Below, piece by piece: positions 6,380 through 21,268 of a stretch of 33,975 nucleotides of DNA; the first letter of the stretch is position 1; each line of letters opens with the position of its first letter. Under the pieces are notes generated by a model, which saw only the letters and a list, made by a program, of their open reading frames with translations, did not search any database and was not told where the DNA came from. Source of the DNA: Candidatus Zambryskiibacteriota bacterium (GTDB lineage Bacteria; Patescibacteriota; Minisyncoccia; Phycocordibacterales; DATDWN01); assembly GCA_026394775.1 (NCBI GenBank), contig JAPLZY010000017.1, positions 1-33,975 of the forward strand, in the 5' to 3' direction. Position numbers and translations under genes: made by a program.

Positions 6380-6883
6380 TTACATATTTTTTTCAGGGTC
6401 AATACTCGATGCGTAATATAAAGACAGGATACTTCCAATACCAATAGTACATATTCCTAAAAAGTATATTCCAGAGGCCACAATGTCAGTGTGAGGCAGT
6501 AAACCTGTGGTGCTCAGTAGATAATTCCAGTCGTGCATTACCGAATCTCCACCGAGAAGGTCGAGTTGTTGGAGCACAGCATCGCCTGCATATACAGAAA
6601 CACTAAGCAGGCTTTGCCCAGTCCACAGAAGACAGAGTGCACCTGAGATATTTTGTCGGTGATAGAAAAAATAGAGTGCAATAGAGAGAGGAAGCATTAC
6701 TTGGAGACCACTACCTGCGAGTACTTGTATAAAAGTCCCAAGGAAAAAAAAGATAGTGTGACCTGCTTCGTGAAATATCAGGTTTGCATTGTCGATAAAA
6801 TGCCACTCTGTATAGTTTTTAGCGCAATACCAAAAGTATGCACAGGCAAGAACGGTCGAACCAATACGAAAAGATTTATTCAT
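6380..6883 (-). CDS. Membrane protein with HEAGH (HExxH) motif, possible membrane metallopeptidase-like
   Basis: NLIFHEAGHTIFFFLG plus TM segments; TATACT 7 nt before ATG. Confidence 0.65.
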   Translation of the reverse strand: MNKSFRIGSTVLACAYFWYCAKNYTEWHFIDNANLIFHEAGHTIFFFLGTFIQVLAGSGLQVMLPLSIALYFFYHRQNISGALCLLWTGQSLLSVSVYAGDAVLQQLDLLGGDSVMHDWNYLLSTTGLLPHTDIVASGIYFLGICTIGIGSILSLYYASSIDPEKNM

Positions 6884-13515: not shown

Positions 13516-13692
13516 TATTAAGTAACTATATCTCATTTTTTGAAGAGATTTCTCTGCGCCCTTGGCGCCTAAGTCTGAAATTCGAGACCGTTTACAGGTA
13601 AGCTTATTCTGTAGACAAGTTATAGGGCCTCGAAACCTTCAGGAGTATGTAATTAGACCTACTCTAAACTATCACAGGAGTTTCGTAGTCGA

Positions 13693-13781
13693 GCAAATTT
13701 CTAGACGGACTAGAAAAATAATTTAAGCCGTACTTGTCGTACGGTGAGAATTATTTTTTGAAGTCCAACAACGAAATTTGC
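13693..13781. repeat. Copy 1 of 89-bp near-palindromic dispersed element
   Basis: GCAAATTTC…GGACTAGAAAAATAATT…CCGTAC…GTACGG…AATTATTTTTTGAAGTCC…GAAATTTGC; matches the reverse complement of 20696-20784. Confidence 0.85.
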
Positions 13782-13805
13782 CGAATACGGAAGTCCAGTT
13801 AATTT

Positions 13806-15041
13806 ATGTATACAAAAAATAAAGGTGGATATGGTGGAGCGCGACCCACTTTCGGCTCCCGTCCATCTTTCGGCTCACGACCTACATCACGGTTTGCACC
13901 ACGCCGACCCGTTAAAAGAGGGCAAGCGTCTTTCAATGACGTTTCTCGATTTATCAATAAAGTTATTGTAACTGAAGAAGCAGAAGTTTTTGTGCCTGAG
14001 CATGCATTTGGCGACTTTGCTGTTCATGATGCTTTGAAAAAAGTGATTGCACTTAAAGGCTACACTACACCGACTCCGATCCAGGACAAATCAATTCCAC
14101 ATATACTTGCTGGTCAAGATATCGTAGGGATTGCAAACACTGGAACAGGGAAGACTGCAGCATTTCTAATCCCGCTTATTCACAAAGTGATGACGGGTAT
14201 TATGGCAAAGCAAAACGAACAGGTGCTTATTGTAGCCCCTACTCGTGAGCTTGCGATCCAGATCGACGCTGAATTCAAAAAATTTACTGATGGACTCAAC
14301 CTTTACTCAGTCTGTGTTGTAGGTGGTGCTCCCATCAACAAACAAATCCGAGATCTCCGGTACCAAAATGATTTTATAATCGGTACGCCAGGACGAATCA
14401 AAGACTTGATGGAACAGGGGTATATAAACCTTTCAAAATTTAATACAATAGTACTCGACGAAGCAGACCGAATGCTCGATATGGGATTTGTAGAAGATAT
14501 GCGCTTTATGATGGCTAAAATGCCCAAAGTACGACATACACTTTTCTTCTCAGCGACTCTTTCAAAAGAAATCGAGCAACTGATCGGAGAGTTCTTAAAC
14601 AATCCGATGCGAGTATCTGTGAAAACACGAGATACATCTAAAAATATTGATCAAGACGTAGTGCGAACAAGAGGTTTAGACAAGCTCGATGTGCTTCATG
14701 ATATTTTGAATCAGCCAGAATGTGACAAAGTGATTATTTTCGGACGAACAAAACATGGAGTAGAGCGTCTCACTGAAATGCTTGCAAAGCGAGGCTTTAA
14801 AGCCGATGCAATCCATGGTGACAAAAATCACACGGGACGTCAGCGAGCACTTACTAAATTTAAAGAAAGCCAGGTTCAGATTCTCGTCGCAACAGATGTT
14901 GCTGCTCGAGGACTCGACATTCCAAACGTTTCTCATGTGATCAACTACGATCTTCCGTCTACGTACGAAGACTATGTTCACCGAATTGGACGAACGGGGA
15001 GAGCTGGGAAGCCGGGGAAAGCCCTGACCTTCATTGACTAG
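13806..15041 (+). CDS. DEAD-box RNA helicase
   Basis: TPIQDKSIP (Q motif), ANTGTGKTAAF, PTRELA, TPGRI, DEAD, SAT, HRIGRTGRAG; ends directly after motif VI. Confidence 0.95.
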   Translation: MYTKNKGGYGGARPTFGSRPSFGSRPTSRFAPRRPVKRGQASFNDVSRFINKVIVTEEAEVFVPEHAFGDFAVHDALKKVIALKGYTTPTPIQDKSIPHILAGQDIVGIANTGTGKTAAFLIPLIHKVMTGIMAKQNEQVLIVAPTRELAIQIDAEFKKFTDGLNLYSVCVVGGAPINKQIRDLRYQNDFIIGTPGRIKDLMEQGYINLSKFNTIVLDEADRMLDMGFVEDMRFMMAKMPKVRHTLFFSATLSKEIEQLIGEFLNNPMRVSVKTRDTSKNIDQDVVRTRGLDKLDVLHDILNQPECDKVIIFGRTKHGVERLTEMLAKRGFKADAIHGDKNHTGRQRALTKFKESQVQILVATDVAARGLDIPNVSHVINYDLPSTYEDYVHRIGRTGRAGKPGKALTFID

Positions 15042-15174
15042 TAAAACTTCCATATTTGGCCAATCAATGATAGCGACTCTTGTCCGACTTTGTTTTCTTA
15101 GAAGTAGTCTTCTTAGAAAACAAGAAGTACTCTAGTAGTGTCAAATCTGAAAGTTTTAGAAAGCTTAGTAGTTA

Positions 15175-17056: not shown

Positions 17057-17059
17057 GAA

Positions 17060-17103
17060 ATGATGGGGACCATCGGGCGCCCTCGCCCGATGGTCCCCAT
17101 CAT
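17060..17103. repeat. Perfect 20-bp inverted repeat, 4-nt loop
   Basis: ATGATGGGGACCATCGGGCG-CCCT-CGCCCGATGGTCCCCATCAT. Confidence 0.9.
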
Positions 17104-17125
17104 TCAGTTTGGTATACTAATACCC

Positions 17126-18382
17126 ATGCAAGATAGCTCAATGTCACTCGACATAGTCTTTTCTGTCAGCGAATACTTAGACTCTTTGAACCGCTCATTG
17201 AAGCAGGTGCGGGCGCGTATTGTCGGTGAGGTTTTAGGAATACAAGAATATCCTGGCCGAAGCTACATGTATTTTTCAATCAAAGATCCGAAAGATGGAA
17301 GTACAGCAAAGTGCTTCATGTGGAAGCAGGATTACAAAAATTCAAGGGTGAATATTGAAGAAGGTATGGAAGTGGTCCTCACTGCATATCCCAATGTGTA
17401 CAAACCAAATGGTGGCATGACTTTGCAGGTGGAAGAAATAGAACTCGTGGGTGAAGGTGCTCTCAAGATTGCTTATGAAAAACTCAAAACACAGCTTGAA
17501 AAAGAAGGTTTGTTTGATGAAGTAAATAAAAAAGCATTGCCGGCACTACCACATCGTATTGGAGTGATTACTTCTAAAAGCGGAGCAGTGATCAGTGACT
17601 TTCTTTCAAATATCGGCAAGTATGGATTTGAAATCATTTTCGTGGATTCAAAAGTAGAAGGTGAGGGTGCGGTCAAAGACCTTCTTTCGGCCCTCCGTAC
17701 GCTGTATATCCAAAAGGTGGATATACTCGTACTGATGCGCGGAGGAGGCTCCCTGGAGTCATTTCAGGCCTTTAATAATGAGTCTGTGGTGCGAGCGGTA
17801 TCCAAATTTAATGCACCGGTGATTACTGGTATTGGGCATGACAAAGATGCACCACTTGTTTCTTTTGTGTCAGACAAAAATGTATCGACACCGACTGCGG
17901 TAGCAAATCTTTTGAATGCTGGTTGGAAAGAAGCAGAACATGAAGTTGAACTTGCAGAGCAAAAGATTGTAGGGCGATTTGAAAAAGTTTTACACGAACA
18001 GAACTTCCTACTTTCAAATGCAGAGCGTATTATCGAACAGCGTTTTCGAATTGTTTTTGAAACATTCAGGATGTATCAAGAAAGTTTGTCTCGTTCGTTT
18101 GACCGCATCGGAATTGCGATTGAACGAATGAAGGATTCTATTGTAGAGTCTGAGCGAAGAATCCTACGCGAATTTACAGAGGGGTTGGAAAAGAAAAAAG
18201 ATGTGTTGGGACAATTTGAAAAATTACTCACCGGACTCAATCCTGAGCGTCAGTTACGTCTCGGCTGGAGTATTACAAAAAACAAAGCGGGTGTGGTGGT
18301 GCGAAGTGTGAGTCAAGTAAAAAGTGGAGAGGAGCTTGAAGTTTCGCTTGCAGACGGTTCTCTTAATGTTAAAATCAAGTAA
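17126..18382 (+). CDS. xseA: Exodeoxyribonuclease VII large subunit
   Basis: VSEYLDSLNRSLKQV…RIGVITSKSGAVISDFLSNI…DILVLMRGGGSLESFQAFN…VITGIGHDKDAPLVSFVSDKNVSTPTAVANLL. Confidence 0.93.
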   Translation: MQDSSMSLDIVFSVSEYLDSLNRSLKQVRARIVGEVLGIQEYPGRSYMYFSIKDPKDGSTAKCFMWKQDYKNSRVNIEEGMEVVLTAYPNVYKPNGGMTLQVEEIELVGEGALKIAYEKLKTQLEKEGLFDEVNKKALPALPHRIGVITSKSGAVISDFLSNIGKYGFEIIFVDSKVEGEGAVKDLLSALRTLYIQKVDILVLMRGGGSLESFQAFNNESVVRAVSKFNAPVITGIGHDKDAPLVSFVSDKNVSTPTAVANLLNAGWKEAEHEVELAEQKIVGRFEKVLHEQNFLLSNAERIIEQRFRIVFETFRMYQESLSRSFDRIGIAIERMKDSIVESERRILREFTEGLEKKKDVLGQFEKLLTGLNPERQLRLGWSITKNKAGVVVRSVSQVKSGEELEVSLADGSLNVKIK

Positions 18383-19936: not shown

Positions 19937-20638
19937 TTATAACCCCAGAGAGTTTAAAAATACTTCCTGTTCTTCATCTACTATCTCTCTGTACTGACCT
20001 GGTTTTACAGCGTTAAGTTCAATATTTTGCACACGTACCCGTTTGAGGTCTGTTACGGTGTAGCCGAGTTTTTCGGTCATACGTCTAATCTGTCTGTTTT
20101 TGCCCTCGGTCAATGTCAAAGAAAAAACATCTTCTTTGATTTTTTTAAACTTCGCAGGTTTTGTCATATGGTCTCCGATATCAATACCTGAAGACATGTG
20201 CTTCATAAATGCGGGAGTGAATTTTTTGTTTACGGTCACGACATATTCTTTTTCGTGGTTTTTTTCAGGGTTTAAGAGTCGGTCGGTAATACGTCCGTCG
20301 TTGGTGAGGATAATAAGTCCATATGAGTCTTTGTCGAGGCGTCCGATAGGGAAGACACGTGTCCGATAGTGGACTGCATCCACAATCTCTTTTTCTTCAC
20401 CCTGGGCACCAGTAGTGACAATACCTTTTGGTTTGTTGTATGCCAAATACACATACTGAGTTGGTTTTCTCTTTTGCTTTACCACCACCACGTCTGCTTC
20501 GGTGACTTTGTCCCCAAGCACTGCTCGTTTGCCGTTTATCGTCACGAGGCCTTTGGTGATGATCTCATCGGCTCCTCGACGTGTCTCGTAGCCTTTGAGA
20601 GCCAGGTATTTGTTGATGCGAATAGCTTTTTCTTCCAT
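19937..20638 (-). CDS. RsuA/RluB-family rRNA pseudouridine synthase (S4 domain)
   Basis: IRINKYLALKGYETRRGADEIITKGLVTINGK; YNKPKGIVTT; FPIGRLDKDSYGLIILTNDG; EGKNRQIRRM. Confidence 0.93.
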   Translation of the reverse strand: MEEKAIRINKYLALKGYETRRGADEIITKGLVTINGKRAVLGDKVTEADVVVVKQKRKPTQYVYLAYNKPKGIVTTGAQGEEKEIVDAVHYRTRVFPIGRLDKDSYGLIILTNDGRITDRLLNPEKNHEKEYVVTVNKKFTPAFMKHMSSGIDIGDHMTKPAKFKKIKEDVFSLTLTEGKNRQIRRMTEKLGYTVTDLKRVRVQNIELNAVKPGQYREIVDEEQEVFLNSLGL

Positions 20639-20675: not shown

Positions 20676-20695
20676 TAAGAAGAACTCCACATCTG

Positions 20696-20784
20696 ACAAA
20701 TTTCGTTGTTGGACTGCAAAAAATAATTTCCACCGTACAGCGAGTACGCCTACAATTATTTTTCTAGTCCGCCTAGAACTTTGC
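20696..20784. repeat. Copy 2 of 89-bp near-palindromic dispersed element (inverted relative to copy 1)
   Basis: Reverse complement aligns gap-free to 13693-13781 with about 12 mismatches by eye. Confidence 0.85.
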
Positions 20785-20812
20785 TCAGATCTGAAGTTCT
20801 AAACTAAATATT

Positions 20813-21268
20813 ATGAAGAAATTAAGTAAAAATGAAAAAATCGCTGTCACCGTTTCTTTGTTTGTGATAGGATTCTTTTTTCTCTTTGGAGAACAAATTT
20901 TACGAGTTGCAATTAATAGCGGAGCACGCGATGTAAAAATTATGACTATTCCACAAATAATAAGTGAAGATAAAGAAATCGGTACAGGAGCAGAAGCGCT
21001 TCCTGGACGACAAGTAACCGTAAACTATACAGGGACATTTACTAATGGAAAACTATTTGATACATCAGTCGGTAAACAGCCATTTACATTTCTTTTGGGT
21101 GCGGGGCAGGTGATACAAGGATGGGATAAAGGTGTGGTGGGTATGAAAGTGGGTGGAAAGAGAATGCTTACTATTCCTCAAGAATACGCTTATGGCGCCA
21201 ATGATTACGGACCGATTCCTGGAGGCTCAACTCTTATATTTGAAATTGAATTATTGAACGTACAGTAA
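20813..21268 (+). CDS. FKBP-type peptidyl-prolyl cis-trans isomerase, membrane anchored
   Basis: GRQVTVNYTGTFTNGKLFDTSVGKQPFTFLLGAGQVIQGWDKGVVGMKVGGKRMLTIPQEYAYG…STLIFEIELL. Confidence 0.95.
   Translation: MKKLSKNEKIAVTVSLFVIGFFFLFGEQILRVAINSGARDVKIMTIPQIISEDKEIGTGAEALPGRQVTVNYTGTFTNGKLFDTSVGKQPFTFLLGAGQVIQGWDKGVVGMKVGGKRMLTIPQEYAYGANDYGPIPGGSTLIFEIELLNVQ

Follow-up and report, generated by a model that had tools for sequence, protein, structure and literature searches.

What is the near-palindromic element that stands, in two inverted copies, at unrelated places in the window (the whole stretch of 33,975 nucleotides analysed here)? The original prediction described an 89-bp sequence at 13693-13781 (+) with an inverted copy at 20696-20784 (-), and offered two readings, a MITE/REP-like mobile palindrome or a shared cis-regulatory RNA. 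Alignment of the two copies gave 77 identical columns out of 89 without a gap, exactly as had been estimated by eye, and the nested palindrome and its hairpin tip are both present in the sequence. The palindromes exceed chance expectation, with sense-strand RNA-fold z scores, relative to dinucleotide shuffles, of -8.7 (copy 1, inner 95 nt, -39.8 kcal/mol) and -3.6 (copy 2). The extent of 89 bp was too short: pairing continues for about 15-18 nt on either side, and homology and pairing together cover about 35 bases more, at 13675-13799 and 20678-20802. With the full element, the distance to the start codons shrinks from the predicted 25-30 nt to 6 nt (start at 13806) and 10 nt (start at 20813). 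The relevant features of the window are listed below, with scores from the covariance models R1 and R3 described in the following paragraphs.

13675..13799, + strand: copy 1 of the element (subtype A) over its whole length (R1, 130.7 bits; R3, 118.3 bits)
13701..13713, + strand: conserved core internal loop, 5' half, TCTAGACGGAC (family consensus TTCTAGGCGGAC), from the alignment of copies
13759..13775, + strand: conserved core, 3' half, GAAGTCCAACAACGAAA, common to divergent ERICs
13806..15041, + strand: ORF of 411 aa, putative DEAD-box helicase (as called in the original prediction), with its stop codon at copy 3
15041..15158, - strand: third, diverged copy, from sequence (R3, 21.6 bits, E 0.018)
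19937..20638, - strand: ORF of 233 aa, whose start faces copy 2 from the opposite side
20678..20802, - strand: inverted copy 2 of the element (subtype A), with a divergent start codon on either side (R1, 128.3 bits; R3, 115.1 bits)
20813..21268, + strand: ORF of 151 aa, putative FKBP (as called in the original prediction)

The third copy had been overlooked. Its sense 3' end lies at the TAG stop of ORF 13806-15041, and its arms, TAAAACTTTCAGATTTG/CAAATATGGAAGTTTTA, are the conserved outer arms of the element (16 of 16 consensus positions in the outer arm scan, TA on both ends) around a different core. The arm-pair scan is mostly noise (165 hits vs 134 in shuffles) and is useful only for this copy and for a second locus of the same genome, L293, where the same core type recurs. 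At the latter (6647-6882, contig C20) a 236-nt composite is found, in which a subtype-B hairpin is nested in a copy of the third-window type with conserved outer arms. Elsewhere in the window, the start of ORF 17060-18382 is spanned by an inverted repeat (17059-17104) whose 21-bp arms match perfectly around a 4-nt loop; it may reflect either a site for a regulator or an artefact of assembly.

The element is not confined to the window. BLASTN of the 753-kb host genome (G000) returned more than 15 additional copies with E values from 4e-31 to 1e-8, 17 full or partial copies being recognised by blastn, and the number rose to about 32 with R1, a covariance model of 125 positions built from 16 own-genome copies, and to about 32-35 with further scans. 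The closest pair is 93% identical and there are no recent near-identical copies; the own-genome copies are old. At one locus (L018/L047, contig C18:4229-4428) an extension of about 75 nt gives the apical region a multi-branched structure. All 16 other genomes of the host's family carry the element, with 4-44 copies each; of 44 genomes in the same order but in other families, 14 gave model matches. In the rest of the phylum Patescibacteria, screened with stricter filters, 6 of 286 sampled genomes contain it. The core pattern is also found in Clostridia MAGs (rabbit gut, roe deer omasum and UBA1234), and three such MAGs gave 24, 7 and 3 model matches. In the rabbit-gut MAG (G061), 5'-truncated copies stand directly upstream of full copies on the same strand (L165, L169, L171, L173, L181, L184 and L186); no partial copies were seen downstream of full ones, and the spacers look related, an arrangement suggestive of polar growth in tandem, or of copying that starts at the 3' end. 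The strict core pattern had no match in IMG/VR, while a looser pattern gave 17 chance matches there, none with the structure of the element. Likewise, the clostridial consensus had no BLAST match among phages and plasmids, an Rfam scan of the window and nine own-genome loci returned no match, and a literature search for repeats of Patescibacteria found none described.

Comparison with a congener (G001) by joined-flank alignment revealed element-free orthologous intergenic sites at L027, L028, L029, L033, L037, L038, L040 and L041; the element is therefore mobile. At L037 the junction can be read directly, as CGAAAATAG-AATGAATAG in the congener matches CGAAAATAG[element]TAAAAGATG; the other exact junctions are blurred by the 20-25% divergence between the two genomes. 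Orthologous genes that lack the element end at the same residue (L027, L028, L035, L046, L050 and L054). At the boundaries, pairing is 96% at offset -2, 54% at +1 and at chance level from +3. T and A occupy the edges, and pairing stops at TA...TA, ends that are also found in the most distant copies from Patescibacteria. The dispersed intergenic copies carry no transposase of their own. Thus, of the mobile reading originally proposed, the MITE-like part stands on further copies, insertion polymorphism and TA ends, whereas the REP-like part does not, given a length of 123 bp and Y1/RAYT genes that do not track the element.

A single long imperfect stem with fixed internal loops spans the whole element. 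The covariation proposed as a check of the prediction is present and strong: among the 16 own copies, 24 of the 46 stem pairs are changed on both sides, a number reached in 0 of 500 shuffles, and across 98 copies from two phyla, compensatory changes occur in 45 of 46 pairs. The covariation score of the latter set is 0.688 vs 0.192 when shuffled and at most 0.15 in slid controls. This argues for a structured single strand under selection. Neither a lack of further genomic copies nor a lack of covariation and positional conservation in relatives, the two grounds on which the original prediction could have fallen, was found. On the strand reading CTAGGCGGAC...GTCCAACAACG, G.U pairs outnumber A.C mismatches by 168 to 23 (binomial p 2e-28). 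As such a bias is not expected of a two-strand cruciform, it is attributed to folding of a single strand of that polarity. One outer-arm U.G pair is kept in most copies, and the terminal bases vary with compensation rather than being conserved in sequence. Pairing was kept through several compensated double changes at one orthologous site (L034/L110), and at two others (L031/L125 and L048/L099) the core has been swapped for that of another subtype with retention of the outer arms. The strand folds as RNA or as ssDNA, and the data fit either.

The position of the copies is polar as well. In 61 of 102 copies, the 3' end of the folded strand adjoins the stop codon of an ORF on the opposite strand, at a distance between -6 and +9 nt; some of these ORFs are perhaps spurious antisense ORFs, such as the 74 codons at copy 1. 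The 5' end does so in 8 of 102 (p 9e-16). The same polarity is seen in Clostridia (14 of 29 vs 2 of 29, p 8e-4). Often the stop codon (TA + R) is completed by the element itself, which provides its last base. Copies occur between divergent, convergent and co-directional genes, the favoured place being the 3' end of a gene, in antisense orientation. The third window copy obeys this rule, and both strong copies belong to the minority, one ending just before a start codon and the other lying between divergent starts. A fixed sense position in 5' leaders is not seen, and a cis-regulatory RNA shared by the downstream genes is accordingly unsupported in the form first proposed.

These properties are reminiscent of ERIC (also IRU or RU-1), which is given as a repeat of Enterobacteriaceae and Vibrionaceae in a 2024 review (PMC10969869). 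Like the element, ERIC (Enterobacterales, Vibrionaceae) is about 127 bp long, has TA ends, folds into a single long imperfect hairpin, is intergenic, lacks a transposase of its own and keeps the same strand orientation; divergent members also have the core loop CTAGGC/AACAACG and the apical GAG/UGA loop. To our knowledge, ERIC was previously known only from gamma-proteobacteria, and its origin and movement have been unsettled since 1991.

Kinship was evaluated with R3, a covariance model from Patescibacteria and Clostridia copies alone that includes no ERIC. An ERIC of E. coli IncF plasmids (L334) scored 41.1 bits, two from Pantoea 35.7 and 28.9 bits, and one from Proteus 26.2 bits, relative to at most 14.5 bits in hairpin-rich controls. 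The matches are full length and on the plus strand only. E values of these four divergent ERICs range from 1e-6 to 3e-3, the best two having about 1e-6 and 5e-6. L334, which is 69% identical to the ERIC consensus, has the core CTAGGCGAC...GAAGTCAACAACG, to be compared with CTAGGCGGAC...GAAGTCCAACAACG in the Zambryskibacteria element; in the longer form, CTAGGCGACAAG...GAAGTCAACAACG stands against CTAGGCGGACAAG...GAAGTCCAACAACG, L334 being one base pair shorter. None of 3.1 million pair-preserving shuffles reproduced the core arrangement of L334. ERICs of Providencia, Proteus and Vibrio have the same or closely similar loops. E. coli copies of the consensus type score weakly (10-14 bits with R3), so that the link leans on the divergent ERICs and the loop motifs. 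Tests with sequence-only profiles gave p values of 0.02-0.06 for the ERIC consensus and about 0.005 for L313/L314. The element differs from ERIC in its hosts (Patescibacteria and Clostridia, outside the reported range of Enterobacterales and Vibrionales), in outer arms unrelated in sequence, in a core helix one base pair longer and in its marked stop-codon polarity, which is not seen in a small, plasmid-biased sample of ERICs (about 4 right and 3 left of 19).

A related annotation exists in Rfam, where V_AS5 (RF02818) appears to be the Vibrio ERIC element. With a gathering threshold of 96 bits, this model gives 102 bits for L336 and 46 bits for an E. coli ERIC. When "Vibrio RNA AS5" was compared with L299, L313, L334, L336 and L338, enterobacterial ERICs matched below the gathering score. 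The antisense annotation of V_AS5 fits the antisense position of the element, whereas the window and the nine own-genome loci gave no V_AS5 match even at E 1.

The reading that best accommodates these observations, with a probability of roughly 0.72, is that of a hairpin about 123 bp long, with TA at either boundary, that is mobile but not autonomous and represents a deep branch of the ERIC superfamily. Copies are dispersed and polymorphic between congeners, and they sit at TA in one orientation, preferably at the TA of a stop codon (TAA/TAG). Each forms one long stem with fixed internal loops that has been conserved on one strand over the long term. Kinship with ERIC is, on this evidence, very probable.

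A multi-copy family of structured RNA genes or antisense RNAs, with effects in trans or on the 3' ends of genes, would explain part of the same data. Mobility would then be incidental, and selection would keep the copies antisense to stop codons. The one-strand G.U bias, the conserved non-canonical loops, the compensatory changes at orthologous sites and the stop-codon polarity all agree with this idea, as does the classification of Vibrio ERIC as an antisense RNA in Rfam (V_AS5). However, the flanks hold no conserved promoter-like sequence, presence varies at orthologous sites, and start codons or the gaps between divergent genes hold a minority of copies, both strong window copies among them. 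We consider this explanation possible but rather unlikely.

Alternatively, the copies could be an unrelated, TA-targeted MITE family derived from an insertion sequence, as RUP is from IS630, with the palindrome as fused terminal inverted repeats and a merely convergent resemblance to ERIC. RUP and Correia (NEMIS) MITEs measure 100-150 bp, have TA at their ends and give hairpin transcripts (PMC2229807); they share size class, TA ends and inverted arms with the element, and the weak scores of the ERIC consensus are also in line with such an origin. These systems are tied to IS630 or to terminal repeats conserved in sequence, whereas none of six carriers tested has an IS630-type DDE_3 gene (PF13358), which was rejected as the mover. 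The terminal bases vary with compensation, unlike ends bound by a transposase. No distant arm pair enclosing a gene was seen in the stretches read, and the exact core is common to L334. An insertion-sequence origin of this kind appears improbable.

Another option is that the palindrome persists through quasi-palindrome correction, a templated form of mutation, and that no folded strand is under selection. Although this process could, from general knowledge, alter both partners of a pair at once, the conserved U.G wobble and internal loops would be lost under it, and the 168:23 strand asymmetry would not arise, which renders it very improbable.

Movement of the copies as REP/RAYT-type ssDNA repeats by a Y1 (HUH) transposase is suggested by single-strand folding, by the dispersed palindromes common to REP/REPIN and the element, and by two Y1 genes in the host genome. 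REP/REPIN units are shorter and reliant on the Y1 enzyme, whereas four carriers, all at least 97% complete, are free of Y1 (G005, 44 copies; G008, 23; G006, 15; G002, 7) and five genomes with Y1 lack the element (G023, G025, G030, G031 and G033). Y1 (PF01797) was thus rejected as the mover, its presence not tracking the element across genomes, and this model is contradicted unless another HUH family is responsible; we regard it as highly implausible. RVT_1 (PF00078) was rejected as well, as it does not track the element. The RAYT-like Y1 gene of the host (L026, C8:71746-72042) is flanked by different hairpins, REP hairpins of the GGGGAAA type, which likewise speaks against this model. Separately, an IS200-like transposase ORF (L025, C16:11573-11938) apparently splits an AbiEii-like gene, the flanking ORFs resembling its halves.

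Finally, sites like integron attC share the geometry of the element (a hairpin just after the stop codon, a folded bottom strand, structure kept as sequence varies), and GTCCAAC on the 3' arm fits RYYYAAC, but this box is on the wrong side, its GTTRRRY partner is missing, and the copies are dispersed without cassette arrays among genes that stay put where the element is absent, so that this identity is scarcely credible.

Returning to the mobile hairpin of the ERIC superfamily, a mechanism can be outlined. A folded single strand, complementary to the coding strand of the gene before it, would be recognised via the internal loops CTAGGC/AACAACG and GAG/UGA and moved by an enzyme encoded elsewhere. 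Insertion at stop codons would be tolerated, since the last base of the stop (TA + R) then comes from the element and the protein stays the same. Once inserted, the hairpin may be retained by selection, perhaps for a structural effect, as RNA or DNA, on transcript 3' ends. In Yersinia, ERIC is reported to have an effect on transcript 3' ends, and control of the upstream mRNA by RNase E, dependent on orientation, counts among the traits of ERIC. ERICs at the 3' ends of genes are reported to alter mRNA decay (PMC10969869). As a tentative proposal, which we hold somewhat short of even odds, ERIC could represent only the gammaproteobacterial part of a superfamily of structure-selected mobile hairpins that is either ancient or widely transferred and extends to Patescibacteria and Clostridia. 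Its members would travel as a folded single strand and enter, in one orientation, at the TA of a stop codon, with an enzyme and a mechanism as yet undescribed.

The finding is larger than first described: Patescibacteria and Clostridia hold a family of mobile hairpins that are under selection for their structure. With relatives from gut Clostridia and from the tiny, host-dependent Patescibacteria, comparisons would be deep enough to define the core and the folding strand of ERIC, and these distant relatives expose a polar rule of insertion at stop codons. The search for the enzyme narrows to gene families common to distant carriers, and intergenic hairpins in the genomes of Patescibacteria, now unannotated, become recognisable.
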